This document shows, piece after piece, positions 5,335-52,721 of a DNA stretch of 59,290 bases (position 1 is the first letter of the stretch; every line of letters starts with the position of its first letter). The notes beneath the pieces are model-generated. The model searched no databases. It worked only from the letters and a program-made list of their open reading frames with translations, and was not told the origin of the DNA. Source of the stretch: Chloroflexota bacterium (GTDB lineage Bacteria; Chloroflexota; Anaerolineae; Anaerolineales; UBA4823); the NCBI GenBank assembly GCA_029265355.1, contig JAJUJL010000024.1, positions 1 to 59,290 of the forward strand, in the 5' to 3' direction. The translations under genes and the position numbers were made by a program.

Positions 5335-8300
5335 ATGAGACTTGCAGGAATTGAAAAGGGAGGTTTTTATCCCTACCCACCTCACATGGCGGAAGCTACG
5401 GCTTCCTGGTTTATCCCGCTTCCAGCGGGTACACGTGGGCGACTGCTCGACCCCTGCGCGGGTGAAGGTGAAATAGCCAGCCTCCTGGGCAAGCTGCTCA
5501 ACTGCGAGACCCTTCGGGCTGAGCCCCTCGGGGAGAGCCCTCAGGCGAACCCTCAGGGCGAAGCCTGGGGCTGCGAGTTGTTCCCCTACCGGGCCGAGAA
5601 AGCCGCTGCCCGTATGGACAAGTGCCACAGCGCCGCCTGGGAGAGCTGCTCGCTCACCGACGAGTCAGTCACGCTCTTATGGCTCAACCCGCCCTACGAT
5701 GACGATCGACATGGCGATGATAAGCGGCTCGAGTTGGCTTTCCTGAAATCGACCACGCCCAAGCTGGTGCGCGGCGGCGTGCTGGCGTTTGTCATTCCTC
5801 AGCGCATCCTGCACCTGGCGGAGATTGTCCGCTACTTGGCCAGTCAGTACGAACACATCAACGTTCTGCGTTTTCCAGACGGCGAGTTCGAGCGCTTCAA
5901 GCAGATCCTGCTGCTGGCGACACGGCGAGATAAGTACAACGTTCCCAACAACGAAGAGATCGAAGCCATCCAGCACCTGGCGGAGAGCGATTTACCACCC
6001 CTGGGCTTTGCCCCCGAGCCGGTCTATCCGCTGCTGCCCGCCCCCCTCAAGGGCGCGGGCGGCCGGGCGATCACTTTTCGCCGGCTGGACTGGGCGCCCG
6101 ACGACCTGGTGGAAGCCAGCCGCTGGGCGGGCGTGCGCAAGACCCGCGCCTGGCAGGATCTAGTTCATCCGGTCAGCCGCGAGATTGCCTTCACCCCCAC
6201 CATTGCCGCTGGCGAAGCGAAGCTTCGCTTAAGCGAACGCTCCGCGTTCGCCGGTCACCTGGCGATGCTGATAGCCTTCGGCATGATGGGCACCTTGAAC
6301 CTGACAGACGATGAGGGTCACCCCATGCTGGTCAAAGGCAGAGTGATCAAGGTGGTGGATAAAACCACTCACCGCGACGATCACGACCCAGAGACCCTGG
6401 TCGAGCGTTTCCGCGACCGCTACGTCACTACGGTGGCCACGCTGAGCGCCTCCCACGGTTTGGAGATCATCCAGGATACCGAGCGCCTGACCGACTTCAT
6501 GAAGGCGCACGGCGACAAGATCGCCGCCCATACCCTGGCAGCTTACCAACCGCTTTATGACCTGAAACCCACCGAAGATGAGCTGGAGATCCTGGACCGC
6601 CTGGGCAAGCAGCGCAAGCCGCTGCCCGGCCAGTCCGCACCTGGCCTGCTCCCGACCCAGAAGCATGCCGCCATCGCCGCCGCCCGGGCCATCCGGATCC
6701 ACCGGGCAGCCAACGTGCAGGGAGAGATGGGCTCCGGCAAGAGCTCGATTGGCCTGGCTGTCATTGAGCTGCTCGACGCCTACCCGGCCCTGATCTTGTG
6801 CCCGCCGCACCTGGTGCCCAAGTGGATCCGTGAAGCGGAAGACGTCATACCCGGTGTGAAAGCCCGTGAACTGCGCCGCATCGGCAAGGGAACGGAGGGT
6901 GATGTCAACGACGTGCGCGCCTTCCTGGATGACTACGACAGTGGCAAGCTGGGACATAAGGCCATCGCCGTGGTTGCATCCACCGCAGCCAAGATGGGCG
7001 CTGGCTGGAAGCCGGTCGTCCAGGCGAAGACGATCAAGATCAACGGCAAGCCCCTGGTCGTTTACACCTGCCCGCAGTGCGGCCAAGTACAGACAGATAA
7101 CCAGGGCATTCCGGTGACCGAGATCGAGTACTTCCAGAAGCACCGCAGCTTTTGTTCGGCTCAGGTCAGCAGTTGGAAACTGGACACCAAGGGCCGGCGA
7201 GTCCGGGATCAAGATGGCAATCCGGTTTGGGAGACGCGTCCCTGCGGCGCTCCGCTCTTCGAGTATTCCGAAGCCCGCCGCTGGTCCATCGCGGAGTACA
7301 TCAAGGACAAGGTGCATGGTCGTTTCAAGCTCCTCATTGGAGATGAATGCCACGAGTACAAGTCGAAATCCAGCGATCGAGGAGTGGCCTTTCACCAGTT
7401 GGCCGAAGCGACAATGTACACCCTGACCCTGACGGGCACCTACTTTGGCGGACGGAGTACTTCAATCTTTTGGTTGCTGCACCGCCTTACGCCCAGCGTC
7501 CGCCAGGATTTTGCCTTCCATGACGAGCTGCGCTGGGCTAACGCCTACGGACTGCTGGAAAGCGTTCGCAAGCGCAAGGTGGATAATGACCTGGCTGACG
7601 AGGACGGCGCCTTCACCGGCAACCGGCGTTACCGCGACCAGGCGCACGAGATACCGGGCGTCAGCCCGGCGATCGGTCGGCAGACCGCCAGCACCCGCTT
7701 ACTGCACAACTCGATCTTCCTCAACCTGAAAGACCTGGGAGTCGAGCTACCGCCCTACGCGGAGGAGGTGATAGAGCTGGAGATGGAAGATGCTCAAGCC
7801 CGCCAGTATCAGGGGATGGAAAGCATTCTGCGCCACATGGCTCGGCGTGACCAGCGCTACCTGTCCCTTTGGTTGCAGTGGGCGCTCTCCCGGCCCAATT
7901 CGGCCTTTCGGGATGAGATCGTTGCTGCCAACCACGCATCGGTGCCGGTCAATGTCCTGGAAGCGCTGGCGCGTGAAATGCTGGAGAACACCGCCACAGA
8001 AGATACGTTGGAAAATCAGATCGCCCGCACCCTGCTGGAAGCAGCAAGGTTAGCTCAATCGGCGGCTTCCCGGCGGGAGAAAGAAACGTTGGTCAAGGTT
8101 CCGTTGATGCCTTTGGAAGCGGTGGTGGATCGCTTCAGCTTGCTGCCCAAGGAAAGCTGGCTGTCCAGCTTCTGCAAAGCAGAAAAAGCTCGCGGCCGGC
8201 GGACGTTGGTGTATGTACGCCAGACTGGCACTCGCGATATCCAGGACCGCCTGGAAAGCATACTAAAGCAATCCGGTGTTCAGGCGATCACCTTGTACGG

Positions 8301-8445
8301 CTCGGTGGACCCGCGCCGGCGTGAGCGCTGGATTGAAGATCACGGCTATGCGGATACACTGATCACCAATCCTCGCCTGGTGCAAACCGGGCTGGATCTG
8401 GTCAGCTTTCAGACGGTCGTATTCTACGAGCCGGAGTACAGCCTC
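5335..8445 (+). pseudogene. DUF6094 methylase-helicase, 3' end lost at a group II intron
   Basis: 1037 native codons. Residues 1-240 are a class I SAM-dependent methyltransferase: motif I DPCAGEGE at 39-46 and catalytic NPPY at 118-121, an N6-adenine-type signature, behind the DUF6094 GGFYPYPPH start. A superfamily II helicase follows: Walker A GEMGSGKSS at 463-471, a Zn-ribbon-like insert with CPQC at 579-582, and DECH at 670-673. The frame then enters the group II intron after YEPEYSL and stops six codons later at 8466. Helicase motif VI, which should follow, is missing and is not found beyond the intron. Such proteins are common on Chloroflexota plasmids and integrative elements; the role is probably element-encoded modification or anti-restriction. 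Confidence 0.85.
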
Positions 8446-8978
8446 GTGCGCCGCATGGCGGCATGAATGATTGTACGTGACGTACCGCAGGTTGAGGAGA
8501 GTACCTGCGAGGTCATCCGATTTACCGAAAGGGGAAACCTGTACGGGAAAAGAGCATGTCGGAAAAGGGGCGAAGCGGGAAGCCGTTTACCGTAGGATGT
8601 CGCCCCAAGACCTGGATGATATGGGTAAAGCTAAACTGCTTCAAGTCCAGTGGCAAGTTGGAGACTATTCCTCTCTTGACACAACGGTTGAGGTCAAGCC
8701 CCGGCAGCAGCATCTTGTAAAGGCTGAGAGGTGCGAAATCCTCCTGCCGGGAACACGGGTCAGTGAGACCTGTCAAGCCACGAACGGACACCCTAAGTCA
8801 TCCTGATAACGTCATTCATGACTGTACTGCGGGATCGCCTACGGGGCGCGAGCCCTATGGCGACGGAAACTCCATAGTAGTCGGTGGGGTCACGTCCACC
8901 CAAGGAGGTTGGGAAAGCCAACCACAGGGCGAAGGGAGTTAGGAACTTTAGCTTGCTAGAAAATTGGAGGTATGCGCA

Positions 8979-10778
8979 ATGCAGAAAGCCGAACAAATTC
9001 TACAAGCCATGTGTAAGTTGGGTGAAAATCGTATTCCCCTGAGGCGAGTATATCGCTGCCTGTTCAGCGAGGACTTGTTCCTGGCTGCATACGACAAGAT
9101 TGCTCGCAACCGTGGCGCTTTGACTGCGGGAACGGAGAACGACACAGTAGACGGGATGAACCTGGCTCGTATCCAACGGATAATCGAGCAGCTACGCTAC
9201 GAACGGTTCAAATTCCGTCCTGCCCGTCGCATCCAAACCCCAAAGAAAAGCGGAGGGACACGCCCGCTGGGTCTCCCGAACTTTACAGACAAGCTGGTGC
9301 AGGAAGCCTTGCGCCGGATGCTGGAAGCCTACTACGAACCCCGTTTTCGGGACAGTTCACACGGCTTCCGGCCTGGACGCGGCTGTCATACGGCACTGGC
9401 AGACCTGCATAAGAAGTTCCAAGGCGCGGCGTGGTTCATCGAAGGCGACATCCGGGGCTGTTTTGACAACATCGACCATGAAACCCTGATGGAAATCCTC
9501 GCGAGAGACATTCAGGATGGCCGCTTGCTCAACCTGATTCGGATGGGACTGGAAGCCGGGTATATGGAGGACTGGCAGTACAACTGTACCTACAGCGGGA
9601 CACCGCAGGGCGGTATCCTCAGCCCGCTCCTGTCCAATATCTACCTGCATGAACTGGATACCTACGTCGAAGATGTGCTGATCCCACAATACACCCGTGG
9701 GAAAAGGCGAGCACACAGCCTGGAATACTGCCGGATGTCCTATCCGATCCAATGCGCCCGGCAAGCCGGAGATACACAGCGAGTGAAGCAGCTTGAACTC
9801 GAACGCAGAAAGCTACCTTCGCAAGATGTGCATGACCCGAACTACCGGCGGCTGCAATACATCCGTTACGCCGATGATTTCATCTTGGGCTTTATCGGCC
9901 CAAAGTCAGAAGCCGAGCAGATCAAAGCAGCTATCGGCGCATTCCTGAAAGACAGGCTACACCTGGAGATGAGTGCATCCAAAACCCTCATCACCCATGC
10001 ACGCACTGAACATGCCCGATTTTTGGGCTACGACATCAGCGTTTACCATGCGGACGACAAAATATCACCCCGAACCGGGACGCTCACCAAGATTCGCACC
10101 CAAAGCGGGTGCATCCGGCTGGGCATCCCGATGGGCAAGGTCGACGAGTTGGTGGCCCGCTACCGGCATGACGGGAAAGTCATGCACGAAAACGAGCTGC
10201 TGGCGTTCAGTGATGCCACGATCGTGAATGCGTACCAGCAACGCTATCGGGGTATTGCCGAATACTACAAGTACGCCACCGATCGGCGGCGCCTGCAAAA
10301 GCTCAAGTACTTCGTGGAAATCGCCATGACCAAGACCCTGGCCTGCAAGCACAAGACCACTGTCAACCGTATCTATCGCAAGTGTGCGAGTCAGAGAGAA
10401 GTGGACGGGACGATCTACAAAGTGCTGGCAGTGCCCATCCCCGGCCAACAAGAGCGGAAATATGCTTATTGGGGCGGCATCTCCCTGAAAAGGGTGGATG
10501 TGGGGCAAGGGTACATCATCGACCGGACCGTTATGGATCAGGTTCCCAGCCCGAAACGGGTAGAACTCATCCGGCGGTTACAGGCGAACCGGTGTGAGCT
10601 ATGCGGGTCAACCGAGAAGTGCGAAGTCCATCACGTGCGCAAGCTGGTGGACATCAAGCGCAGGTGGCGGAAGACGGAAGAGAAACCGGCCTGGGTGAAG
10701 AAGATGATCGCAATGCGTCGCAGGACACTGGTGGTCTGTGCAGCGTGTCATCACGAGATCCACAATGGACAGACCTAA
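8979..10778 (+). CDS. Group II intron reverse transcriptase/maturase with HNH
   Basis: 599 aa from ATG 8979 (GGAGG at 8966-8970, 8-nt spacing); a TTG start at 8964 is less likely. The RT domain spans about residues 60-330, with SHGFRPGRGCHTAL, GDIRGCFDNIDH, GTPQGGILSPLLSN and the catalytic YADD. A maturase X domain and a C-terminal HNH endonuclease follow, the last with CELCG, EVHHV, CAAC and HEIH ligands. It assists splicing and performs target-primed reverse transcription for retrohoming. All core motifs are present, so it is probably functional. The stop lies 24 bp upstream of domain V, as usual for domain IV ORFs. Confidence 0.95.
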   Translation: MQKAEQILQAMCKLGENRIPLRRVYRCLFSEDLFLAAYDKIARNRGALTAGTENDTVDGMNLARIQRIIEQLRYERFKFRPARRIQTPKKSGGTRPLGLPNFTDKLVQEALRRMLEAYYEPRFRDSSHGFRPGRGCHTALADLHKKFQGAAWFIEGDIRGCFDNIDHETLMEILARDIQDGRLLNLIRMGLEAGYMEDWQYNCTYSGTPQGGILSPLLSNIYLHELDTYVEDVLIPQYTRGKRRAHSLEYCRMSYPIQCARQAGDTQRVKQLELERRKLPSQDVHDPNYRRLQYIRYADDFILGFIGPKSEAEQIKAAIGAFLKDRLHLEMSASKTLITHARTEHARFLGYDISVYHADDKISPRTGTLTKIRTQSGCIRLGIPMGKVDELVARYRHDGKVMHENELLAFSDATIVNAYQQRYRGIAEYYKYATDRRRLQKLKYFVEIAMTKTLACKHKTTVNRIYRKCASQREVDGTIYKVLAVPIPGQQERKYAYWGGISLKRVDVGQGYIIDRTVMDQVPSPKRVELIRRLQANRCELCGSTEKCEVHHVRKLVDIKRRWRKTEEKPAWVKKMIAMRRRTLVVCAACHHEIHNGQT

Positions 10779-10802
10779 CCCATCTGAAGCATCAGTTCTG
10801 GA

Positions 10803-10836
10803 GAGCCGGATGATCCGAAAGGGTCACGTCCGGTTC
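10803..10836 (+). ncRNA. Group II intron domain V
   Basis: A 34-nt stem-loop with the conserved AGC triad near its 5' end, a GAAA tetraloop and a CCGGUUC 3' arm: the catalytic heart of the intron RNA. Its position 25 bp after the maturase stop and about 66 bp before the 3' splice site is canonical. Confidence 0.9.
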
Positions 10837-10902
10837 GGAGGGGGGACTGGGGAAAAGTACTGTCGGCTGTATCGGCAGCAACTCGCCCCTTTCCTACCCT
10901 AC

Positions 10903-12129
10903 TTATCCAAAGAGACCAACAAGGGCAAGCTAGAGCGTTCGCTTCAAGGCTATCACAATGGAGCCGTCCCTTGGGGTTACATCAGTGTGCTGCAGGGCAA
11001 CCGCAAGGTAGGCGTTCCCGACCCGGAGAAGGCTCCGGTTGTGGTCGCAATGTTTGAACGCTATGCTACTGGCCAATACTCTGACATGCAGATTGCCAGC
11101 TGGTTGAACGAACAGGGATTTCTCACCGCGAAAAACCGCATGTTTAACAAGGACTCAGTGCGGGATATGCTCTGCAATCCCTATTATGTGGGCAAGATCC
11201 GTTACCGTGGGATGACCGTCCGTCCTAAAGGAGTCAGCTTTCGCTCAACGCCGCCTCAGGTCTCCAATGGCCAGCACGAGCCAATCATCACCCAGGAGTT
11301 GTGGGATCGCTGCCAGGCGCTGCGTGCCAGCCGGCGTGTGGTTCCCAAACCCGGGCAGACGGCTGCCAGAGTTCACCTGCTGCAAAGCCTGGCGGTCTGT
11401 GCGCACTGTGGTCGACGACTTCGTGTCCAGACACCGAAGAATTACCCCACCTACCACCGGGAGGATTCGCACCTGCGCGGCTACTACGACTGCCCGTACT
11501 CAGGTCAAAGCATTCACGCTGACAGGCTGGATGAACAAGTCGCAGCTCTAATACAGTCGCTGAAGCTCACTCCAACCTGGGAAGAAGATGTGCGGAAACT
11601 GCTGCATGACGAACAGGACAGACCCGATCCGGAGGCCGAGCGCAAAGAGATTCGCAGTATGTTGCGCCTGATGCGCGATAACTATGAGCGGGGCCTGTAC
11701 GAAGGCGAAGAATACCAGTACTGGCAGAAAGTCAACAGCTTGAAGGAAAAACTCGAGCTGCTCACCCGTATCCCGGAGTCGGCGATTGAACGGGCTGCCC
11801 TCACCCTGCTGAACCTGCATGACAGCTGGGAATGGGCTACCCGCGAAGAGCGCAAGATGCTGGTGCGGACTATGATCCAGGAAGCTGGTTGCGATGTGGG
11901 TACAAAGCGCATCATGTGGGTCAAAGTCAATCCAGACTACGAGATTCTCTTCCGGCTGATGGATAGACTGCGCCCCGACGCTGGGCGACGCTACTGGATC
12001 CGAGAACAAGGTGCAGAAGGGAATATTGTTGACATAGGGGAAGAGATGAGACAGACGGTAACGGAAGTCAAAATCGCCTTCCCGGTGTCCCACAACACCT
12101 TGACAAGAGTCGAGGAGTACGTACAATGA
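10903..12129 (+). pseudogene. Large serine recombinase, N-terminal catalytic part missing
   Basis: The first native codon after the intron is TTA at 10903. About 408 residues follow. LERSLQGYHNGAVPWGY is the entry to the Recombinase domain (PF07508-like). Next come the zinc-ribbon-like domain (CAHCGRRLR with a later DCPYSG), a coiled-coil region and the C-terminus. The resolvase-type catalytic domain with the active-site serine, about 150-180 residues, is absent and replaced by the intron. The open frame happens to run in from intron domain IV at 10738, but those codons are not recombinase. Large serine recombinases integrate and excise elements at att sites; this one cannot act alone. Parts of its 3' end are repeated near 30.64-30.83 kb. 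Confidence 0.85.
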
Positions 12130-12197
12130 AGGATAACCGCTTAAAAGTTGAGATCGCCCAGCAGGCACTGAGCGATCTCGGGTGTGGAAACCACACC
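12119..12197 (+). terminator. Tandem hairpins after the serine recombinase (repeat copy 1)
   Basis: GAGATCGC (12150-12157) pairs with GCGATCTC (12172-12179), followed at once by GGTGTGG-AAA-CCACACC (12181-12197). The first hairpin and about 30 bases before it recur at 33249-33311. It probably ends transcription of the recombinase gene, though no T-run follows. Confidence 0.55.
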
Positions 12198-19545: not shown

Positions 19546-20373
19546 TTAAAACTCTTCGCGCCCAAAGCGCCACAGTGCAATGGCTGTCATCACGATGATC
19601 CAGCCCGACACAGCCAGGATTGGCACAAACCAGCCCGGCGGCAAGGGCATCCGCAGCGCCAGCGCTCCGCTGAGGTCTGGGAGCAGCCAGGGGGTGAAGA
19701 GCAAGACCTGAAGCGGGATCAAGCTTTTTAACAGTAAACCGGTCAGGATCATGGCAATACCAATTGCGGCGATGGGGCCGCGGCTGCTGAACAGTGCGCC
19801 CAGCATCACCGTCAGGGTGATATAGAAAAGGAGATTCAGTATCGCTACAGACACCCCGACCAGAAAATGCATCCAGGGGAGCGGAGTAGAGATCAAAAAC
19901 GGCATTTCGAGGTAAAAAATCGTCGCGGGGATCAGAATAGCGCAGATCGAAAACCCAACAAAGTAGGCGATGATCTTTGCCAGGATAAAGGCTGAACGCG
20001 AGGTAGGTTTGGACATGACCCAGGCGGCCGTCCCCAGCTCTTTTTCGCCGACCACGGCGCCCTGGACCGTGATGATCGTTCCGATCCCAACTGTCGCGAC
20101 CAGCATAGGCAGGAAGGTCTGCACCACCTCCTGTAACTTTTCAATAGCCAACCCCGATTCGGACAGCGCGACGATGGTAGAAACACCGTTCAGGAGCAGT
20201 ACCCAGATGATGGCTTGTACCCACCAGGTGCGGGTACCCCACCACTGGCCCAATTCCTTGCTCAGCAAGTTGCCAAAGCCGCCCAGCCATGAGCGTTCAG
20301 CTACGGGGCGTAATCCCTTGCGGGCTGCCAGGATGAGATCCTGGGTGATAGCTGTTTTCGATTGTGTGGTCAT
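19546..20373 (-). CDS. ABC transporter 2, permease
   Basis: 275 aa, six predicted membrane segments in the ABC-2 arrangement, with an amphipathic N-terminal stretch (NLLSKELGQWWGTRTWW) preceding the first. GEKELGTAAWVMSKPTSRSAF between segments 2 and 3 is the typical ABC-2 coupling-helix region. The start overlaps the ATPase stop by four bases. It forms a homodimeric exporter with the protein of 20370-21335. Confidence 0.88.
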   Translation of the reverse strand: MTTQSKTAITQDLILAARKGLRPVAERSWLGGFGNLLSKELGQWWGTRTWWVQAIIWVLLLNGVSTIVALSESGLAIEKLQEVVQTFLPMLVATVGIGTIITVQGAVVGEKELGTAAWVMSKPTSRSAFILAKIIAYFVGFSICAILIPATIFYLEMPFLISTPLPWMHFLVGVSVAILNLLFYITLTVMLGALFSSRGPIAAIGIAMILTGLLLKSLIPLQVLLFTPWLLPDLSGALALRMPLPPGWFVPILAVSGWIIVMTAIALWRFGREEF

Positions 20374-30421: not shown

Positions 30422-31090
30422 AAAGCACCCCTTTCTTGTGGTTTATGCCTTAAATGATTACCCTACCAAAAGGGTGGCTAAATAGCGCTGAGCGAAGGCC
30501 TTTCGACCGGGCTGGACAACATGAGATCTAAGATGATTATAGTCCAAATATCGGGAGGAAATCAAGGAAAATTACCGTAAAAGTATGCCGGAGGTTGTTT
30601 CAAAAAACGAATCAAACGTGATCTTTATTCTACAGAGTGTTGTGTTTGGCAGCTGGATGGAGAGTTGTGTTGGTGGATATTGCGCATAAAGTTAGATGGG
30701 AACATCTGTGACATAGAGGTAGATACCGGACAGATGAGTACCGGTGTCGAAATCCTGCTGCAGATGTCTGACAAGGCAAGCACTTGTCTTGCAATACCTT
30801 GACGAGAGCAGAGGAGTACATAATAATGATTTAAGGATTGGTGCGGCGCGGGGTCATAAAACCACTCCGCCTACCAGAGCGCAGCCGCCGCATAATCCAC
30901 AATTGGACTAAGCCGGTGTTGGAACGAATCACGACCGATTTGGGAATTGATGCGAATTCGCTCCCCCTAAATGCCTCGCCTCGCCTGGTAATTCGTGCCC
31001 TTATGTTTCCTCTTCCCTGGCAACGAGCAAACTGCTGAATTAAATTGAACATTTCTGGGCGAACCGTTTGCGTCCTGGAGAATCAGAATT
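30422..31090. other. Gene-poor stretch with recombinase remnant
   Basis: About 670 bases with no convincing gene. It holds the upstream region of the LuxR gene and a decayed copy of the serine recombinase 3' end (30640-30830). Short open frames at 30831-31052 on both strands show no recognisable features. Confidence 0.6.
30640..30830 (+). pseudogene. Decayed 3' end of a serine recombinase gene (repeat copy 2)
   Basis: The stretch aligns with the last about 180 bases of the 10903-12129 gene, for example shared GGGAA-AT-TG-TGACATAG-GG-AGA, GACAGA, AAATC and the tail TTGACNAGAG-GAGGAGTAC. Translated, it retains W-I, GNI-DI and an EI core. An in-frame stop at about 30800 and many substitutions show that it is not functional. 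It marks the right border of the transporter/protease locus. Confidence 0.6.
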
Positions 31091-33248: not shown

Positions 33249-33311
33249 GTCCAATGAAGGGTATGCACTTTAAAAGTGAGATCGCCCAGCGTGAGCTGAG
33301 CGATCTCGGTC
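33249..33311 (+). repeat. Copy 2 of the recombinase-associated hairpin repeat
   Basis: About 60 bases closely matching 12119-12181: CAATGAAGG, TTAAAAGT, then GAGATCGC (33279-33286) and GCGATCTC (33301-33308) around a 14-nt loop. From 33312 to 33559 I see no gene; it holds small dyads and presumably one end of the IS110 element. Confidence 0.75.
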
Positions 33312-33559
33312 GCAGATCCCTTGCACCTTGACAGTCCTACCACCAGAACGATTAAGTCCGGCAGTAAGTGCAGCTTACGCTGCCTAGGGGGAACTTATAA
33401 CCTGCGGACACGCTTTGTCAACCCCCAATCCGTAAAATAGACGCGATAAGCAAGCGGTGCCGGAACAATCGTTTCGGCCTGTTTGCGATTAAGGGATGAC
33501 AAGGGTGGACCCATCCAATCTGCCTGCTCCAGTCATGCGCTCATAAAAACAAAACGTCG

Positions 33560-35190: not shown

Positions 35191-35448
35191 ATGACAACAC
35201 AATCAGTCCACTCACCCCCGGGCACCTGGAATGCCCGGAACTTACTCACCGTACTTGAAGTAGCAGAGTGGGCACGTGTCCACCCGAAAACCGTCTATCG
35301 CTGGATCAGAGATGGAAAGCTTGAAGCGATCCAATTTGGACCGCGCACATTCCGTGTGCCGGAGGATGCCATTGGTAAGTTTCTTCAGAAAACAGGATAC
35401 AAGAAGGCGTCTGAGTTCCCGAAGCCAAACGGGAGAGAGCAATCATGA
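35191..35448 (+). CDS. HTH_17/excisionase-like DNA-binding protein
   Basis: 85 aa from ATG 35191, with GGGAG eight bases upstream. The core LTVLEVAEWARVHPKTVYRWIRDGKLEAIQF with FRVPEDAIGKFL is the MerR-like winged helix of excisionase-family proteins. It ends with a 4-bp ATGA overlap with the initiator gene, so the two are coupled. Likely roles are repression of the operon, control of initiation, or recombination directionality for the integrase at 41.9 kb. Confidence 0.82.
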   Translation: MTTQSVHSPPGTWNARNLLTVLEVAEWARVHPKTVYRWIRDGKLEAIQFGPRTFRVPEDAIGKFLQKTGYKKASEFPKPNGREQS

Positions 35449-37601
35449 ACGGCTCCAATATCCAACCCGAAAGGGCGTGGCAAATGGCGCTTGACCAGTT
35501 ACGTCTGGGTATGCCGAAGGCATCGTTTGATACCTGGGTGCGGGATACCAGCTTTGTCTCGTACGAAGACGGAGTTTTCACCATTGGTGCCCCCAATGCC
35601 TACGGCCGAGAATGGCTGGCCAGCCGCCTGACCAGCACGGTGACCCGCATGCTGACCGGTATCCTGAACCAGCAGGTGGAAGTGCAGTTTATCGTCGTTG
35701 AAGCGCCTGTTGTCGGAGATGAAGAGCCGGAAAGCGACGAGTATGACCAGCAGATAGCAATCCTGCCTGAGCAACAACAGGAGGTGCTGGCGCTGCAGGC
35801 AGCCTATCAATCCGTCTACGACGAGATCGTTCGCCCCGACCAAGTGATCGTCCTCCCAGGCTATTTCCTTCGCTTTATCCCACTGCTCGGCGTGGAGCTG
35901 GCCTGGATGTATATTGGCTTCCGCCAGGCGGCCTACGAAGCAGGCGCAGCCAGGCAGCCAGGAAAGAAGTTTGGCGCGCCGGCGCAGAAGGTTGCCAGGT
36001 ACTCTGGGATGAGCCTGCGCACCTTCCGTCGCTACTCTGCAAAACCCGATACCTGGCAGCGCTTACGCGGTCTGGTTACGCCTATCGAGGATCAACCCCG
36101 CTGGCAGCACGGCAGCGATAACCACCCTCATCGGACCCCCCGTTTCTACCGGGTGGCAATGACCCTCCCGTTGACCCCCTCCGATGAGCTTTCTTTGCGC
36201 TCCTGGCTGTACAAACGCCTGGCCGGAGGGAAAAGCCCACTGGCGGTGATCCAGGCGGCTTTAGAGACCCCGGTGGATGAGCTGATCCCCTGGCAGGAGA
36301 ATACACCTTCGTCGAGAGATGTCAGCGTCGAGCTTCATTCTGTTCATGATGTGCTGAGCGCTGTGTGCGGACCAATCTCAGATAACGATCGCAAGCCATT
36401 CCAGGAATTGGCCGATCAGTTGGCGCAACACCTGATGCCGCCCAAAGACCTGGTCTTCCTCACACACTACTTCGTGACCCGCTGGTTGCCCAAACTGGGT
36501 CATGGGCAGGGCTGGTTTGTAGTGATGCTGCGCGATCGCTGTTATATCAACCCTCGCACAGGCGAAATCCGGGACGAAGCACGGGTAGAACAGGGCTACG
36601 CAGAGATCGCTGGTTGGTTAGGCTTGAAACGCGTCAAAACGATCTGGGAATGGCTGCGCAACGATGACGTCAGCCGGTTCGTCCGCGAGATAAGCCACGA
36701 GTTTGGCGAATGGGAAGAATCGCCGCGCCGCTTCAAAGTCTGCCTGGGTGAACCGATGACTGAGGAAGACCAGACCCGGGCAAATGAATCGTTAGCCCAT
36801 AGAGGGTTTGGCGCAGTTGACACGTATAGCCAGCCGATTGGCGCGAATGACACCATTAGGAATGAGCGCACCAGCGGCTCGGTTGGCGCGGTTGACACCC
36901 ATAATGGCGGAATTGACACCATTAGTGGCGCGAGTGACACCATTAGGGATGGATATAGCAACGATCTTATTGGCGCAGTTGACACCCATAATGGCGCAAT
37001 TGACATCGGTCGTGGCGCGAATGGCACTTCCGTTGGCGGTGATGACACCCATAGGGTTGGCGCGGTTGACACTTTTGATTGGCGCGAGTGGCACAGGTTA
37101 AACACCTTAGCACTTGGTTTGAATCACAAGAAAAATACGCCAACCACCACCGACGCCGGCATCGAACCTGATTCAGCAGTTGATTCCGACAGACTTGAAA
37201 AGGGGGTGGTGGGCATGGAATGGAATTTATCGGATTTGCTTCTTCGAAACCGAATAAGCGCCAAAAACCAGGAATTGCTCCTGGGAAAAGGTTTAACAGC
37301 GCAGGCTTTTATTTCCTGGTTGCTTTACGCCGCCAGCATGAGCGGAAATGGCATCCGCGATCCTATTGCCCATGCTGTCTCTCGCCTGATCCCCGACCCA
37401 GGTCGAGGTGCAGGTGGCGTCTTTGATCAGCTATCCGAGTTGCCTGCCAACGAGCTGGCGGACATGCTGACCAGGGAGTTGGCTGGACAAAGCCCCTGGA
37501 ACCAGACCTGGCGGAAGGGAATGGCAGGCGCGCCGCGTTCGCGCCTGCGAGCGCTGGTTGATCAATTGGGTTTATCGGTCCCTGAAACTGGATATTGGTA
37601 A
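35445..37601 (+). CDS. DnaA-N-domain replication initiator with internal heptapeptide repeats
   Basis: 718 aa. Residues 8-88 (ERAWQMALDQLRLGMPKASFDTW, DGVFTIGAPNAYGREWL) match the DnaA N-terminal domain, here without the AAA+ part. A large helical, winged-helix-like middle follows (about residues 130-440). Residues about 455-545 are heptad repeats of the form G-A-x-D-T-x-x, encoded by iteron-like DNA repeats. The C-terminal 130 residues are globular. Coupling to an HTH gene and linkage to ParA/FtsK genes make it the probable initiator of a plasmid or integrative element. The family assignment of the middle is uncertain. Confidence 0.75.
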   Translation: MNGSNIQPERAWQMALDQLRLGMPKASFDTWVRDTSFVSYEDGVFTIGAPNAYGREWLASRLTSTVTRMLTGILNQQVEVQFIVVEAPVVGDEEPESDEYDQQIAILPEQQQEVLALQAAYQSVYDEIVRPDQVIVLPGYFLRFIPLLGVELAWMYIGFRQAAYEAGAARQPGKKFGAPAQKVARYSGMSLRTFRRYSAKPDTWQRLRGLVTPIEDQPRWQHGSDNHPHRTPRFYRVAMTLPLTPSDELSLRSWLYKRLAGGKSPLAVIQAALETPVDELIPWQENTPSSRDVSVELHSVHDVLSAVCGPISDNDRKPFQELADQLAQHLMPPKDLVFLTHYFVTRWLPKLGHGQGWFVVMLRDRCYINPRTGEIRDEARVEQGYAEIAGWLGLKRVKTIWEWLRNDDVSRFVREISHEFGEWEESPRRFKVCLGEPMTEEDQTRANESLAHRGFGAVDTYSQPIGANDTIRNERTSGSVGAVDTHNGGIDTISGASDTIRDGYSNDLIGAVDTHNGAIDIGRGANGTSVGGDDTHRVGAVDTFDWREWHRLNTLALGLNHKKNTPTTTDAGIEPDSAVDSDRLEKGVVGMEWNLSDLLLRNRISAKNQELLLGKGLTAQAFISWLLYAASMSGNGIRDPIAHAVSRLIPDPGRGAGGVFDQLSELPANELADMLTRELAGQSPWNQTWRKGMAGAPRSRLRALVDQLGLSVPETGYW
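36810..37100 (+). repeat. Iteron-like array of about 21-nt repeats inside the initiator gene
   Basis: Eleven units with the core GGCGC-N3-TGACACC start at 36810, 36840, 36885, 36906, 36927, 36972, 36993, 37014, 37035, 37059 and 37081. Most spacings are 21, others 24, 30 or 45. The last unit is 22 bases after the tenth and so out of the protein's reading frame, which favours selection on DNA. This could be the origin's initiator-binding array. Confidence 0.6.
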
Positions 37602-37628
37602 ATGGTTCACTTTAAATGGAGGTATGAC

Positions 37629-38105
37629 ATGAAAAAGATCGGTTTCTTCATCGCAATCATTATGCTGGTTTGGCTGGCTGCAGCGGCATGCGGGCCAGGC
37701 GACAATGCTGTAGAGATCGCGCAAGCGCAGAGCGTGATCGAGGCGGCCCGAGCCGCCCAAGATGCTGCCCGGGCAGCGCAGATTGCCTCCCAAGGATTGA
37801 GTGATGTTGGACGAGGTCAAACGCTGATCCTGGTACTCCTGACCCTGGTGGTGGTTTTGCTGATTGGGATGGCTGCCTATATTGTCATCCAACGCCAGAT
37901 TTGGAAACACAGCCAGGTTCAACCAAAGACAACTGGGCGCTGGATGGGTGGGCCAAATGCTCATTGGAAGCGGGTAGCAGGTTCTGACCCTTACCAACAA
38001 CTCCTCCTCCAACAGCAGTTGCTGCTTACCCAGCTTCTTCAACAGAGCCAAACAGAAACTCCGGAAGATGACCAACCTCAACTGCCTGCTGGGTGGTGGG
38101 GATAA
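37629..38105 (+). CDS. Small lipoprotein with one further membrane segment
   Basis: 158 aa from ATG 37629 (GGAGG at 37618-37622). Signal peptide ending LAAAAC (Cys21), an Ala-rich helical stretch (AARAAQDAARAAQIASQG), then a membrane segment at about residues 65-87 and a Gln-rich cytoplasmic or periplasmic tail. No family is recognised. It lies 27 bases after the initiator gene and is followed by a second lipoprotein gene and the FtsK-like ATPase, so a membrane complex for the ATPase is a reasonable guess. Confidence 0.65.
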   Translation: MKKIGFFIAIIMLVWLAAAACGPGDNAVEIAQAQSVIEAARAAQDAARAAQIASQGLSDVGRGQTLILVLLTLVVVLLIGMAAYIVIQRQIWKHSQVQPKTTGRWMGGPNAHWKRVAGSDPYQQLLLQQQLLLTQLLQQSQTETPEDDQPQLPAGWWG

Positions 38106-38119
38106 GTGAGAGGGTGAGG

Positions 38120-39127
38120 ATGGTGAACATGAAAACCAACATGCTGTTTTATCTGCTCTTACTGCTACTGGCTGGAGGGATACTGACTGCATGCGATGAT
38201 GCCGCTTACATCAGCGCAGATCCCAATGTCTCTGGAGTTCAGGCTCGGGCGACCCTGGAATTTGTACAGGCTGTGCAGACCTCCACAGCTCAGGCTTTGT
38301 ATGCCGCCGAATGGCAGGCGACCGTCCAGGCCGGCGCGACGCAGGATGCAATTCAGGCTGCCTATGTCGCTGCTCAGGCTACCGAAGAAAGCATCCGAGC
38401 TGCGGCAGCAGCCACCCAGACTCAACAGGTTTGGAATGCCACTGCAACAGCCGATAGCAATCAGGCAACCGCCACGGCTGCCGCCAATGCCACGGCAGTG
38501 AGCTGGTCCAGCACTGCCACCCAATCGGCCTGGAACAATCAGGCTACCGCCGAAGTCGCCAGCGTGCAGGCATTGCAAACCGCTCAAGCTGCTCAAGCCG
38601 ATATGGCTCGCATGGCGGCAGAACGCCAGCGAACGATCAATAAAATTCAAGCCGCCGCTCCCTGGGTGATCCTGGGAATCGCTGTTCCTTTAGTGGCTTA
38701 TCTGGCTTGGGTGTGGGGCAACACCGAAGCTCTGCGCCGGCGCGCCATCCCGCGTGATCCGCGTGGGGATGCACCTATCCTGATCCTGGACGACCACGGC
38801 AGGCGCAATGTCATCGACCCGGATTTGCTCTTCAGCGCAGCTGTATCGATCGGTAAAAGTGGTCAACCGGAAGCTCCGTTGCTGGCTGCTCCTGAGCTCC
38901 AATCCCAGGTAAAAGCGCGTGACCAGGCGGTCGATCTCGTCAGCCGTGGCCTTCCCGGCCAGCCTCCGCGCAGGCGCGCTTTACCTGCCCTAACACAACC
39001 TCCTCCAAATCCGTTGTTAGGCGACGTCCGGGTAGTGGAGCCTGAGGAAGTCAAGGATTGGATCTCGGATGTGCTGCCGCGTATCCAGCAGAAGGCGCTT
39101 CAGGAAGGAGAAGACGATGATGTTTGA
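38120..39127 (+). CDS. Ala/Thr/Gln-rich lipoprotein with membrane anchor
   Basis: 335 aa. Start at 38120 (GAGGG five bases upstream) or at 38129 (GAGG nine bases upstream). Lipobox LTAC with Cys25, then about 150 residues of Ala/Thr/Gln-rich, probably coiled-coil sequence (QATATAAANATA). A membrane helix follows (about residues 184-203), then a roughly 130-residue, basic and Pro-rich tail. An anchored N-terminus plus a helix would place the coiled coil outside and the tail inside, facing the FtsK-like ATPase encoded next with an 11-bp overlap. Confidence 0.65.
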   Translation: MVNMKTNMLFYLLLLLLAGGILTACDDAAYISADPNVSGVQARATLEFVQAVQTSTAQALYAAEWQATVQAGATQDAIQAAYVAAQATEESIRAAAAATQTQQVWNATATADSNQATATAAANATAVSWSSTATQSAWNNQATAEVASVQALQTAQAAQADMARMAAERQRTINKIQAAAPWVILGIAVPLVAYLAWVWGNTEALRRRAIPRDPRGDAPILILDDHGRRNVIDPDLLFSAAVSIGKSGQPEAPLLAAPELQSQVKARDQAVDLVSRGLPGQPPRRRALPALTQPPPNPLLGDVRVVEPEEVKDWISDVLPRIQQKALQEGEDDDV

Positions 39128-40475
39128 AACCAACAACTTCATTTCCAGGCGTTACCAGCTCCAGGCGCAGATCGTTGCAAAGCGGCTACCGCAGGTGCTG
39201 CAACAGCGCGGCCTGGAAGCGGCGTTTGCCGAATTTTTGCTCACCTCGACCCAGGGCATGGTGTTGCTCTTTGCCATTCTGGATCTGCCCCGCGTCAGGC
39301 GGTTGGAAGCCTATACCACCCCCGAACTGCTGCATCACCTGAGCACCGATTTGCAGGGGCTGCCGGTGTTCCTCTCTAACTCGAATGGGCTGCGCTACGC
39401 CATCCCGCTCTCGCCTATTGCCCGCCTGCCAAAGGTAATTCCATTCCCCGGAGTAACAGATGGTTGGGTACAGTTGGGCGTCAACCACAGCGGTGAGACG
39501 ATAAGCCAACCCTGGTCGAGACTTGGTCACCTGTTGGTGGCTGGCAAGACAGGTTCCGGAAAGTCAGTATTTCTGCGTTTACTGGCCTACCAGGCACCTG
39601 CCGGAGGCGCTCAGCTTCTTTTAGTTGATCTGGACGGCGCAACCTTCCCGATGTTGACCAATCACCCAGCATTGTTGGCTCCAATCGCAACCACACCGCA
39701 AGCAGCTCAAGCGGCAATCGAGCGCGCCCTCGGGGAGTGCGATCATCGAGCGGGGTTGTACATGCAAATGGACGGATATCCGGAAAGCCTGGAAGAGTAT
39801 AACCGGACAATCGTCCGGCATGGAAGTGACCCGCTCCCCCGGTTGCTGGTAGTGCTGGATGAGTTCAGCGCCCTGATGACAACCCTGGGTGGCCCGAAGA
39901 GCAGTTTTGCTAATCGGGTCGCAGAGTTGGGTTGGCGTGGGCGCAAATTCGGCGTCCACCTGGTGTTTGCCGCCCAGGATTTCACCAAGCAAGTGGTAGG
40001 GCGGGTGCGTGACCAGGTGAGCGCCGCAGTCTGCTTTCGGGTGCGCAGCCTGGAAGCCGCCCGTGCGATGGGCTGCCCGGAAGCAGTCCGCATTCCGGAG
40101 AGTCGCCCTGGACTGGCATGCACCGACCGTTGGGGATTGGTGCAGACCTTCTACCTGGATAAGCGCATGTTCGGGCAGATTGGCCCAAGGGCTGTGCTTA
40201 GCCGGCAAGAGCAGGAACTGGTGGAGCGCGCATTGAACGAAGCAGAAGGTAAGATGTCCATCCCGCTGCTCGTGTCCTGGGGAATGCCTGAACGCGGGGC
40301 GCGTTCGCTCGTGGAGAGTTGGGAGCTGCGCGGCTGGCTTCACCAGGATCCGACGCGCCAGAACGCCCGCTATGTAACCCCGAAATTGAAAGCATTGCTG
40401 GCTGCTTTTACCAGCAATGCCAAATCCTTGTCAAGCAGTCAAAGTGGTCATACCGCGTCAAGCACATCAAACTGA
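39117..40475 (+). CDS. FtsK/SpoIIIE-like DNA translocase
   Basis: 452 aa from ATG 39117 (GGAG at 39107-39110). Walker A AGKTGSGKS at 142-150, Walker B LLVVLDEF with D248/E249, and GRKFGVHLVFAAQD as in FtsK-type motors. A winged-helix-like C-terminus (about residues 370-430) could bind DNA. There is no N-terminal membrane domain of its own; the preceding lipoproteins may supply it. Comparable proteins move double-stranded plasmid DNA in actinomycete-type conjugation, or act as coupling or partition motors. Confidence 0.85.
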   Translation: MMFETNNFISRRYQLQAQIVAKRLPQVLQQRGLEAAFAEFLLTSTQGMVLLFAILDLPRVRRLEAYTTPELLHHLSTDLQGLPVFLSNSNGLRYAIPLSPIARLPKVIPFPGVTDGWVQLGVNHSGETISQPWSRLGHLLVAGKTGSGKSVFLRLLAYQAPAGGAQLLLVDLDGATFPMLTNHPALLAPIATTPQAAQAAIERALGECDHRAGLYMQMDGYPESLEEYNRTIVRHGSDPLPRLLVVLDEFSALMTTLGGPKSSFANRVAELGWRGRKFGVHLVFAAQDFTKQVVGRVRDQVSAAVCFRVRSLEAARAMGCPEAVRIPESRPGLACTDRWGLVQTFYLDKRMFGQIGPRAVLSRQEQELVERALNEAEGKMSIPLLVSWGMPERGARSLVESWELRGWLHQDPTRQNARYVTPKLKALLAAFTSNAKSLSSSQSGHTASSTSN

Positions 40476-40489
40476 TGAGGAGTGAGAAT

Positions 40490-41263
40490 ATGCCTACGAC
40501 TATAGCGATCTTGAATCAAAAAGGGGGCGTGGGGAAGACGACTACTGCTGTCACCCTGGCTTCCGGATTGGCCAGGAATGGCTACCATGTTCTGTTGATC
40601 GACCTGGATACCCAGGGCAATGTCGCCGACAGCCTGGGCTTGCCGCACAGCGACGACCTTCGCCGGCTGCTCTCACCTGATTTACGCGTTCCGATCGACC
40701 AGGTCATCACATCGAGCGGATTAGATCATCTGGATGTCATCCGCTCTGACAAGAGCACTACCGCTTTGAAACAAACCCTGGCTGGTGTAACCATGCGAGA
40801 GTACGTCCTGTCGGATGTGCTGGAAAGTGTTGCGCATGACGTGATCCTGCTGGACTGCGCTCCTTCAGCCGATCTTCTGCACTTCGCCGCCCTGGTTGCC
40901 GCTGATTATCTGCTCATTCCCACCCGGCTTGACAAGCTGGCAGTGAATGGTGTGCGTGATGCGCTGCAGACATTGGCAGCTTTGAGACGGATTACCCGCT
41001 GTCAGGTAGCCGGCATCCTGCCTACTTTCTACGAAAGGGTTACTTTGGAAAGCCATGAGCAGCTGATCCATCTGGCACAAACCTTTGGCAAGCTTGTGCT
41101 GCCGCCTATCCCACAAGATACCCAATGCCGTGTGGCGACTCGCTACGGGAAGACGTTATGGGACTACTCTCCAAACGCTAAAGCGCTGAATGGTTACGAG
41201 CAAGGCAACCGGCGAGTGGGCGGATATCTACAAGTTTTAGAACGAGTAAAGGAATGGCTATGA
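40490..41263 (+). CDS. ParA-family partition ATPase
   Basis: 257 aa from ATG 40490; the frame is open from 40319, but only this start has GGAG at seven bases. KGGVGKTTT at 11-19 is the deviant Walker A of ParA/MinD. DLDTQGN and VILLDCAPS are the A' and Walker B motifs. It ends in a 4-bp ATGA overlap with the ribbon-helix-helix gene, the usual type Ib partition layout. With the repeats at 41.69 kb it forms a complete candidate segregation cassette. Confidence 0.9.
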   Translation: MPTTIAILNQKGGVGKTTTAVTLASGLARNGYHVLLIDLDTQGNVADSLGLPHSDDLRRLLSPDLRVPIDQVITSSGLDHLDVIRSDKSTTALKQTLAGVTMREYVLSDVLESVAHDVILLDCAPSADLLHFAALVAADYLLIPTRLDKLAVNGVRDALQTLAALRRITRCQVAGILPTFYERVTLESHEQLIHLAQTFGKLVLPPIPQDTQCRVATRYGKTLWDYSPNAKALNGYEQGNRRVGGYLQVLERVKEWL

Positions 41264-41679
41264 ACAGAAACATAAAAGGGTTAACCAGTTTCGAAGAATT
41301 GCCCGGCGTCGACCCGGCGGTTGAGTCGCTGCTTGGGCAAGGTCAACGCCGTCAGGATGAAGCACGCTTGCCTCGAACCGAGCGATCCCGCAAGAAGAAG
41401 GAACGCGAGCGCGCTGAAAAGCGTAAACCCAACCGGATCAACCTTGACCTGCCGGTAGATCTGAAAAAGCGCCTGGAGCACCTGGCCAAGAAGGAGGGTG
41501 TGCCGATCAGCCAATTGGTAGCCTTCCTGCTCTACGAACCGGTACACCAGCTCGAGAGCCGGGCGATCAGCCTGTGGGGCTACAAGACCGCCTCCGGCTG
41601 CCCGAAGTTCGAGTGCAACCTGGATTTGAAACGCCGCGCAGATGAAGCGGCGCATCACGATGCGTCGCGGAAATCTTGA
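41260..41679 (+). CDS. Ribbon-helix-helix partition partner
   Basis: 139 aa. The ATG at 41260 overlaps the ParA stop and has AAGGA at about eight bases; an ATG at 41254 lacks spacing. A basic, Lys/Arg/Glu-rich region (about residues 45-62) precedes RINLDLPVDLKKRLEHLAKKEG, an RHH DNA-binding fold. The C-terminus would contact ParA or fold over the repeat array. It probably binds the five TAGGGCGTCCTA-type repeats that start 13 bases after its stop. Confidence 0.8.
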   Translation: MNRNIKGLTSFEELPGVDPAVESLLGQGQRRQDEARLPRTERSRKKKERERAEKRKPNRINLDLPVDLKKRLEHLAKKEGVPISQLVAFLLYEPVHQLESRAISLWGYKTASGCPKFECNLDLKRRADEAAHHDASRKS

Positions 41680-41692
41680 TAAGTTGGTTGTG

Positions 41693-41786
41693 TAGGGCGT
41701 CCTAAGGCGATTTGTAGGGCGTCCCACTAGGGCATCCTATTAGGGCGTCCTAATGGAAAAAACCCGGAAAATCATAGGGCGTCCTA
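41693..41786. repeat. Centromere-like repeat array (candidate parS/parC)
   Basis: Five copies of the near-palindromic 12-mer TAGGGCGTCCTA begin at 41693, 41715, 41728, 41741 and 41775 (two with a single change). They lie between the RHH gene and the integrase gene, where partition centromeres are often placed. From 41787 to 41904 I see only two small stem-loops, AGCCAC/GTGGCT (41809-41832) and GCCCT/AGGGC (41859-41872). Confidence 0.75.
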
Positions 41787-41904
41787 TGAGCCACCAGGAA
41801 GGCTCAGGAGCCACGCATTGTGAGGGGTGGCTATCTTTGATCATAAAGCGAAAAAATCGCCCTTGTAAGGGCAAAAATATACACCACAAGAATGGAGACT
41901 GAAA

Positions 41905-42825
41905 ATGACAGACGCGCTGCATCTAGACGAATTCCAGGCGTATTTGTTAGCTGAGGATCGCTCGCCGGTAACGATCGCAGGATATTTGGGCGATGTACGC
42001 TTATTCGCCCAATGGTATGAGGGGCATTATCGGGACGCATTGATCCCTGCTTCTCTGACAAACGAAGCCGTACGTAATTATAAGCAACATCTTCTTGACC
42101 AGGCTGCCAAACCTAAGACGATCAACCGCCGGCTAGCAGCTCTGGCAGCCTATGCCCACTGGTTGGAGCAGGCCGGATACGTCAGGAACGCGCGCAACCC
42201 TGTGCAGGGGGTGAAGGCCGTGAAAGAGACTGCGCTGGCTCCCAAGTGGCTGGATAAAAAGCAGCGTGCGGCATTATTGAGGGTAGTTGATAAGGAGGTT
42301 GAAGATGCGATGCGTCGATACCCGCGCCTGCGGTTGATGTATCTGCGAGATGCGGCAATTGTCAAGCTGATCTTGTTTGCCGGTCTGCGGGTCGGCGAAA
42401 TCATCCAATTGCGAATGAGTGACGTAGTTCTGGATGACCGCAAGGGCAGCGTGATTGTTAGGGAGGGGAAAGGCACGAAGCGGAGGGAAATTCCTTTGAA
42501 TGTCAAGGCACGCAAAGCAATACTTGATTATTTAAGGGTCAGACCAGATGTGGAAATAGATGATCTCTTTCTTGGCCAACGCAATGAAGGTGTACAGAGT
42601 AAGACCATCCAGCGGGCTGTGCAGCGCTTTGCGAAGAAAGCGGGTCTAAAGAACATTACTCCCCATACTCTCCGCCATAGTTTCGCAAAGGCCTTGATCG
42701 ATGCAGGGGTATCTCTGGAAAAGGTTGCGACTCTATTGGGGCACAGCAATGTGAATACAACCCGTATTTACACAACGCCTGGTGAGGAAGATTTGGAGGA
42801 CGCAGTAGGAAAAATTGAGGATTAG
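41905..42825 (+). CDS. Tyrosine site-specific recombinase (XerC/D-like integrase)
   Basis: 306 aa. N-terminal core-binding SAM-like domain (LAEDRSPVTIAGYLGDVRLFAQW) and catalytic domain with Arg (GLRVGE), HTLRHSF (His-x-x-Arg), LLGHSN and nucleophilic Tyr in TTRIYTTP. GGAG lies nine bases upstream. It is intact and would integrate or resolve the replicon. Its place directly after the partition cassette supports an integrative element or plasmid dimer-resolution role. No attachment site could be recognised in 42826-42958. Confidence 0.92.
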   Translation: MTDALHLDEFQAYLLAEDRSPVTIAGYLGDVRLFAQWYEGHYRDALIPASLTNEAVRNYKQHLLDQAAKPKTINRRLAALAAYAHWLEQAGYVRNARNPVQGVKAVKETALAPKWLDKKQRAALLRVVDKEVEDAMRRYPRLRLMYLRDAAIVKLILFAGLRVGEIIQLRMSDVVLDDRKGSVIVREGKGTKRREIPLNVKARKAILDYLRVRPDVEIDDLFLGQRNEGVQSKTIQRAVQRFAKKAGLKNITPHTLRHSFAKALIDAGVSLEKVATLLGHSNVNTTRIYTTPGEEDLEDAVGKIED

Positions 42826-46324: not shown

Positions 46325-46395
46325 ATTTCTCGATCTCCTGTTTCAATAACCTACGTTCATATTATCGTTCAAAAACTCACTCTCAATGGCTGTTT

Positions 46396-49227: not shown

Positions 49228-49239
49228 ATCTAAAATCGC

Positions 49240-49310
49240 AACCACGAATTACACTAATCCACACGAATTATGGATGGTTTTATTCGTGCCCATTCGTGTT
49301 ATTCGTGGTT
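49240..49310. repeat. Palindromic repeat flanking the GxxExxY gene, copy 1
   Basis: AACCACGAATTACACTAAT at the left and ATTCGTGTTATTCGTGGTT at the right form an imperfect stem over about 70 bases. A second copy at 49715-49788 is in the same orientation. Such ACCACGAAT repeats commonly accompany GxxExxY genes. Confidence 0.75.
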
Positions 49311-49320
49311 AAGCTGCTCA

Positions 49321-49698
49321 TCACCTGATAATCCGCTTCCATTCCAACTTGCCAACAGAGCCAAAATTGATCAACAAGCCCAGCCGCAAGCCGGTTGCTT
49401 TCAGATAATTCAAAAGTTGCGCTTCTTCGATAGCTCCCAATGCAGAGATGGTTTTCAATTCCAGGATGATTTTATCGAACAGGATCATGTCGGGAACATA
49501 ATGATGGCGCAAGGGTTGGTTCTTGTATAGAATCTCCAACGGAACCTGTTCTTTGAAAGGAATATTCCTCAGCGCCAGCTCAATCGCCAGCGCATCTTGG
49601 TAGACGCCCTCCAAAAAACCATTACCGAGCTGGTTATAGACCTCCATCGCCGCTCCGACAATCTGATAGACTTCTTCTTTATACAGCAGTTCCGTCAT
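49321..49698 (-). CDS. GxxExxY-family putative PD-(D/E)XK nuclease
   Basis: 125 aa. The family motif is present as G27-x-x-E30-x-x-Y33 within GNGFLEGVYQ, followed by YVPDMILFDKIILELKT, a D...ExK nuclease-like core, and the conserved LLNYLKATGLRLGLLINFG end. The function of the family is not established; the fold suggests a nuclease. It is bracketed by two direct copies of a palindromic repeat and separates two DUF1156 genes, so it looks like a small mobile cassette inserted between them. Confidence 0.85.
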   Translation of the reverse strand: MTELLYKEEVYQIVGAAMEVYNQLGNGFLEGVYQDALAIELALRNIPFKEQVPLEILYKNQPLRHHYVPDMILFDKIILELKTISALGAIEEAQLLNYLKATGLRLGLLINFGSVGKLEWKRIIR

Positions 49699-49714
49699 TT
49701 TCTATGCCTTATTG

Positions 49715-49788
49715 AAACCACGAATTACACTAATCTACACAAATTTTTGACGGTTTTTATTCGTGACCATTCGTGTTATTCGTGGTTT
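49715..49788. repeat. Palindromic repeat flanking the GxxExxY gene, copy 2
   Basis: Same unit as 49240-49310 (AAACCACGAATTACACTAAT ... ATTCGTGTTATTCGTGGTTT) with a diverged middle. It lies 17 bases beyond the gene start and ends four bases before the next methyltransferase gene's stop. Confidence 0.75.
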
Positions 49789-49791
49789 CTC

Positions 49792-52716: not shown

Positions 52717-52721
52717 AGAAT

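Follow-up and report, generated by a model that had tools for sequence, protein, structure and literature searches.

A mosaic group II intron between helicase and serine recombinase exons in a Chloroflexota bacterium: probable recombination between introns of two home sites

The idea that genes can be made by recombination inside introns is an old one, although it has been argued mostly from eukaryotes. A 2021 report is said to describe chimeric relaxases that are produced by exon shuffling at both the RNA and the DNA level, with the chimeras joining versions of the same gene. In Thermosynechococcus elongatus, a single ABC-transporter pseudogene supplies both the 5′ exon of one of the introns TeI4f and TeI4g and the 3′ exon of its partner, from which the authors deduce that two ancestral introns underwent homologous recombination with exon shuffling (PMC2882425). 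Ll.LtrB of Lactococcus lactis is described as undergoing intergenic trans-splicing, which gives chimeras at the RNA level (PMC6248898). Here we analyse a group II intron in a 59,290-bp stretch of Chloroflexota DNA, hereafter the window, which is contig C61 of a draft genome of 64 contigs and 5.05 Mb (G000; relatives are labelled G for genomes and L for loci). The intron lies between a truncated methylase-helicase gene and a truncated serine recombinase gene. We consider it probable that this is a hybrid intron, which would have arisen by recombination between an intron resident in the helicase gene and another resident in the recombinase gene, with deletion of the DNA between them and fusion of the two genes in frame.

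The locus differs from the described systems in several respects. The T. elongatus introns are all 85-100% identical to one another (PMC2882425), whereas the window involves two diverged, site-specific lineages and its intron visibly carries the mosaic; moreover, the window joins two different neighbouring genes in frame, and the DNA between them has been lost. The likeness to Ll.LtrB is that exons from different genes are brought together by a group II intron in a bacterium (PMC6248898), but in the window the join is genomic. Exon shuffling by group II introns thus has a precedent in TeI4f/TeI4g, and what appears new is recombination between two home sites; in the open-licence literature, we found no report of a two-home-site intron recombination that left a mosaic intron and fused two genes. 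In this case the sequence of a bacterium reveals relatives of both parents, the home site of each, where the crossover lies, which DNA was lost and how the reading frame runs. An implication is that diverged site-specific group II introns can exchange their 5′ and 3′ parts inside the reverse transcriptase (RT) gene. Such an exchange runs against the general picture that the ribozyme and its protein evolve together (PMC4424553).

The boundaries of the intron (Table 1) were set by homology, because the introns of five related loci (L046, L047, L049, L050 and L051) align with it from nt 1 to nt 2457. Group II introns have the conserved ends GUGYG...AY, and the window intron begins with GTGCG and ends with CCCTAC. 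Its domains V and VI match RF00029 with 63.7 bits against a cut-off of 40 (Rfam), and the match ends at the last base of the intron. The maturase open reading frame contains RT, maturase X and HNH domains and zero internal stops; against the NCBIfam equivalog TIGR04416 it scores 272.6 bits, which is under the curated cut-off of 300. A previous sequence-only reading of the window had described a group II intron with canonical ends, a domain V and an intact maturase, and these results agree with it.

The genes that flank the intron differ, with a helicase on the left and a recombinase on the right, whereas the introns of relatives have one gene on both sides. The final six codons and the TGA of the helicase open reading frame (8446-8466) are intron sequence, and the exon ends at 8445, codon 1037. 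The helicases of relatives read on past this exon end with YVLWQALRRVWRLGQ, which is motif VI, with QALRRVWRLGQ directly after the intron site; this is absent in the window. The 408 residues of the 3′ exon (10903-12126) have the Recombinase and Zn-ribbon domains of Pfam and no Resolvase domain, whereas the relative in G050 has all three. The window helicase therefore lacks motif VI, which a functional superfamily 2 (SF2) helicase requires, and the recombinase lacks the N-terminal Resolvase catalytic domain that is required of a functional large serine recombinase. Both truncations had been recognized in the sequence-only reading, as had the position of both junctions on codon boundaries: each is in phase 0, and joining 8445 to 10903 gives a single open frame of 1445 aa.

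The same reading had regarded the two genes as unrelated, but three relatives (G050, G013 and G023) have the 3′ end of the helicase next to a complete recombinase. In all of them the helicase 3′ end continues through motif VI, the recombinase frame is whole, and the end of the helicase match is separated from the start of the recombinase match, on the same strand, by 1355, 1339 and 1357 bp, respectively. Between the two junction positions in G050, the closest of these relatives, there are 1358 bp, which encode the end of the helicase, including QALRRVWRLGQ, and the beginning of the recombinase, including its Resolvase domain; this is the stretch missing from the window. The contigs of G013 and G023 start within the helicase gene, while the helicase gene of G050 has a different intron at codon 675 and one in-frame TAG shortly after it; G001 carries both genes about 10 kb apart. 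Recombination between two introns, as the earlier reading proposed, could have either deleted or translocated DNA. The adjacency of the genes in relatives rules out a translocation from an unrelated place, while recombination with loss of DNA is upheld by the home sites at both flanks and by the intron being a mosaic of the two site lineages.

It can be added that the helicase gene looks, from the arrangement of these loci, like a hot spot for group II introns. Different group II introns split it at about codon 675 in G050 and G001 (loci L028 and L031), and at L179 (G708) two introns lie amid helicase parts.

Junctions were read at 11 related loci (10 of 63, and L033; L053 and L054 on the 3′ side only). 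At six of these (L033, L047, L048, L049, L050 and L051; lineage A) the intron is followed by Y[VT][LM]WQ..RRVWRLGQ and so occupies the same helicase site, between EYSL and Y, and in all five cases with the 5′ exon on the contig (L033, L047, L049, L050 and L051) that exon ends in EYSL. These introns, all from Chloroflexota, share with the window the site, the 5′ end and a close 5′ two thirds, but their loci keep the helicase 3′ exon and they have another intron 3′ part. L053 and L054 have helicase-like 3′ flanks at other positions, while the introns of L052 and L067 are less closely related and interrupt different genes. The intron of L046 (5483-7933) is 95-100% identical by segment to that of L047, with flanks that do not read as helicase, and is an ectopic insertion of a helicase-lineage intron.

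The second home site emerged when the C-terminal part of the window maturase was searched against 400 genomes from the order: two introns, L150 (G301) and L151 (G274), were closer to the window (70-71%) than were the helicase-site introns (64-67%). These two introns (lineage B) split a serine recombinase between N and L in phase 0, before LQQETRKGK and LRQETIKGK, with Resolvase upstream and Recombinase and Zn ribbon downstream. The recombinase exon of the window starts with LSKETNKGK, and the uninterrupted gene of G050 reads YSDN followed by LSKETNKGK, which is the homologous position. L150 and L151 thus share with the window the recombinase position, the closest 3′ part, domain VI and the phase of the 3′ exon, but they differ in having kept the recombinase 5′ exon, in their 5′ part and in the recombinase subfamilies that host them. 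Since the helicase-site and recombinase-site insertions are all in phase 0, an in-frame fusion would be automatic for any such exchange. The 3′ exon begins with T at both sites, which is compatible with the use of one exon-binding site 3 (EBS3). Introns were found in 149 of 396 genomes of the class, and 6 of these loci were retrieved, while 6 viral loci turned up with 30-34% identity; additional recombinase-site introns may exist beyond the loci that were read at their junctions.

The intron itself is a mosaic of the two lineages. In an alignment with the six A and two B introns, 147 columns separate A from B. To the left of the best breakpoint the window agrees with A at 62 and with B at 11 of 73 two-state sites, and to the right it agrees with B at 52 and with A at 12 of 64, the remaining 10 of the 147 columns matching neither. 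The Fisher P value is 3e-15 at the fitted breakpoint; because this breakpoint was chosen from the data, the labels were permuted as well, and the observed value was reached in 0 of 100,000 permutations. Leave-one-out controls showed no switch: L050, the most divergent A intron, has B bases at 22 of 103 sites on the left and 19 of 99 on the right, and L150 and L151, each with the other as the sole B reference, carry A bases at 63 of 163 and 74 of 174 sites on the left and at 49 of 146 and 55 of 152 on the right. Neither half gives a uniform signal in the outgroups L052 and L067, which show a mixture of both.

Triplet tests and trees give the same picture. With the window as child, the maximal descent was 77-104 for all 12 parent pairs and was reached in 0 of 5000 shuffles (six pairs were also run with 20,000). 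In 16 rows with another A-lineage intron as child the descent was 6-11, with several nominal P values below 0.05 (the lowest 0.004), and small local exchanges among A introns are possible on this evidence. When a B intron was the child (two rows), the raw descents were larger (154 and 147) because B bases prevail, and shuffles reach these values as often (P 1.0 and 0.84). In the tree of the left half the window groups with A, against B and the outgroups (99.5/99), and in that of the right half it groups with B (100/100); the approximately unbiased (AU) test rejects window plus A on the right with P 2e-6. Lineage A, rather than the window, was also considered as the recombinant and rejected, as by branch lengths it is B that looks displaced in the right half, and the window stays with A on the left. 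By both likelihood and triplets the breakpoint falls inside the maturase gene (Table 1).

These data bear on a simpler possibility, that an ordinary deletion beside a single helicase-site intron ended by chance at the intron 3′ end. The helicase site is a common home of the intron family, and a deletion between neighbouring genes is a simple event. Such a deletion, however, must have stopped exactly at the last base of the intron and begun exactly at the other home position of the family, and must also have kept the frame and left a 3′ part of the other lineage, a set of coincidences that makes it extremely improbable.

We propose instead that an integrated mobile element carried the helicase gene with its own serine recombinase gene just downstream. 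An intron of lineage A would have homed into the helicase gene between EYSL and Y, and an intron of the related but distinct lineage B into the recombinase gene between DN and L, in the same orientation. A single exchange within both intron-encoded RT genes, at approximately intron nt 1647, would have removed everything from the crossover point in A to the corresponding point in B: the rest of intron A, the end of the helicase gene, the start of the recombinase gene and the first part of intron B. The net loss would be one intron's worth of sequence plus 1.36 kb, leaving the hybrid intron between the broken genes with its exons automatically in frame, so that splicing would yield the 1445-aa fusion. 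We infer that both introns were once resident at the window locus and that the exchange occurred by DNA recombination.

The homology at the crossover is relevant to the last point. In aligned nt 1500-1750 the known A and B introns have no exact run longer than 16 nt in common, which is poor for a RecA-type exchange, although the true parents may differ. An alternative is RT template switching, a reaction that published work reportedly describes for group II RTs. In this scenario, a complementary DNA (cDNA) of B inserting into the recombinase gene would have copied the B 3′ part and then switched to an unspliced helicase RNA containing intron A, after which the helicase end of the cDNA would be repaired into the upstream gene, giving the same product without recombination of two DNA copies. 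However, it requires insertion, switching and repair at one locus, none of which is demanded by the sequence, and the case against ordinary homology is judged from known A and B introns and not from the true parents. We regard template switching as unlikely, and favour an exchange between two resident introns.

The sequence-only reading had also raised a collapse of two intron copies in the assembly and had pointed to a second copy, flanked by the missing exon ends, as something to be sought in the same genome. An assembly chimera would consist of two elements, each with its separate intact intron, joined by the assembler. The genome is indeed a draft, and a second recombinase copy is unfinished at the end of contig C9, its 5′ part being absent from the assembly. 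The missing gene ends and a second domain V would nevertheless be expected in the assembly, and were not found: a single domain V was detected (150 of 280 first-look candidates scored) and the intron gave one DNA match; no recombinase N-terminus of this kind was found in the draft genome, the match there being a 25%-identical recombinase on contig C12; and the helicase 3′ end gave only a decayed C-terminus on contig C11 with two stops, and chance-level matches. As the two lineages average about 62% similarity over the 3′ part, an assembler would also need a long shared word, and none exceeding 16 nt occurs between the known lineages in the region compared; in addition, the two genes are adjacent in relatives and the frame is kept. 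Collapse of two copies is therefore disfavoured, and we hold a chimeric assembly to be quite improbable. The decayed helicase C-terminus (L109, G000:C11 ~19822-20052), with its stops, may be a fossil of a related element.

Several observations nonetheless weigh against recombination between resident introns. A single assembly contains the junction: when 38 genomes of the family were compared, the intron end and the recombinase occurred in one match in the window's own genome only. The exact junction had 0 matches in viral contigs, and the intron had matches in 84 and 3 records of plasmid and phage collections, respectively, none covering 80%. The second recombinase copy, which corresponds to G050 protein residues 432-552, is cut off by the end of C9, which indicates that part of a second element is unassembled. 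The recombinases that host L150 and L151 are of other subfamilies, about 25-33% identical to that of the window, and no intron was found in the window recombinase's own subfamily (at least 70% identity), where 10 of 10 site-spanning copies outside the window are uninterrupted; the fragments in G001:C119 and G000:C9 stop short of the intron site. Nor did we find a locus that still has both introns at their sites. On the left, the AU rejection of window plus B is just moderate (P 0.023). Furthermore, A and B are less alike on the right than on the left although the A-A and outgroup distances stay even, and B is also far more remote from the outgroups in its 3′ part than in its 5′ part; lineage B may for this reason itself be an older mosaic.

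Pairing of exon-binding site 1 (EBS1) gives mixed signals. The candidate EBS1 of the window, in a variable loop of domain I, forms 6 Watson-Crick pairs with the helicase exon at -7..-2 (shuffle P 0.03), the EBS1 of L150 and of L151 forms 6 pairs each with its own exon (P 0.04 and 0.06), and the L151 loop pairs over 7 nt with the G050 recombinase exon. To be counted with the points against are that the EBS1 of five other helicase-site introns pairs over just 2-4 nt with their own exons, and that the L150 loop pairs over 7 nt with the helicase exon of the window, exceeding the pairing with its own exon. Pairing between EBS and intron-binding sites (IBS) was rejected as proof, being too weak and partly contrary.

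A further recombinase of the same subfamily, in G399 (L195, G399:C168), consists of residues 1-130 followed by pieces of ~365-411 and 519-552. An intron was considered for this gene and rejected in favour of an internal deletion, as there is no intron and no maturase nearby.

The hybrid intron presumably still splices. The fusion protein is probably inert, because it would be without helicase motif VI and without the recombinase catalytic domain, and the element is probably locked in place, without a working recombinase of its own. It seems doubtful that an intron whose domain I comes from one lineage, and whose catalytic 3′ end and maturase C-terminus come from the other, both splices and expresses a true helicase-recombinase fusion protein. 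If it did, a spontaneous, splicing-competent intron recombination would have made a new protein, and phase-0 home sites would be built-in fusion points. In another genome, locus L180 (G719:C205) has two introns in direct orientation 3557 bp apart (~5450-7340 and 9010-10900), with identical split maturase open reading frames, and such a pair would be well placed to undergo a deletion of this type.

Table 1. Positions, strands and supporting evidence for the intron, its exons and the defence genes of the window
Feature	Position	Strand	Basis
5′ exon, DUF6094 methylase/SF2 helicase, codons 1-1037, ends ...EYSL before motif VI	5335..8445	+	Pfam DUF6094, Helicase_C, ResIII; identical exon end before introns of L033, L047, L049, L050, L051
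Mosaic group II intron, 2457 nt, GTGCG...CTAC	8446..10902	+	Full-length alignment to relatives, domain V, mosaic tests
Intron part of helicase-site lineage, domain I to ~codon 375 of maturase	8446..10088	+	62/73 informative sites as in A; left-half tree
Chimeric intron-encoded reverse transcriptase/maturase, 604 aa, YADD at residue 302, HNH	8964..10778	+	RVT_1, Intron_maturas2, AI2M-like_HNH
Estimated crossover, intron nt 1643-1653, maturase residues 375-379	10088..10098	+	Likelihood-ratio maximum nt 1647; triplet tests nt 1647-1707
Intron part of recombinase-site lineage: maturase C-terminus with HNH, domains V and VI, 3′ splice site	10098..10902	+	52/64 informative sites as in B; right-half tree 100/100
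Domains V and VI, intron 3′ end	10801..10902	+	RF00029, 63.7 bits
3′ exon, serine recombinase from LSKETNKGK on, without Resolvase catalytic domain	10903..12129	+	Pfam; G050 relative 96% identical over 408 residues, with Resolvase
HmaC	42959-46324	-	
Two tandem HmaB-like methylases	46396-49245, 49792-52728	-	
HEC-09 protein and DpdF-like helicase	between HmaB-like methylases and HmaA	-	
HmaA, without N-terminal part at contig end	56507-59227	-	

Downstream of the fusion, the recombinase tail together with the attachment-site-like (att-like) stretch that follows it (window 12121-12181) recurs at window 30696-30774 and 33249-33312, some 18-21 kb away, and a further copy is found at the end of contig C9 (L035), beside an intact tRNA-Ser(CGA) gene. 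The recombinase gene adjoins a tRNA-Ser gene in four relatives (L028-L031), and the window retains only a stretch like the 3′ part of the tRNA. The recurring copies suggest repeated integrations of related elements.

Finally, we note two other blocks in the window. A second mobile-element block (35445-42825) comprises a DnaA_N-domain protein, an FtsK-like ATPase, ParA and a tyrosine recombinase. It is followed, on the minus strand, by Hma-type defence genes (42959-59227; Table 1), in which HmaB is doubled, an arrangement that is, to our knowledge, unusual.

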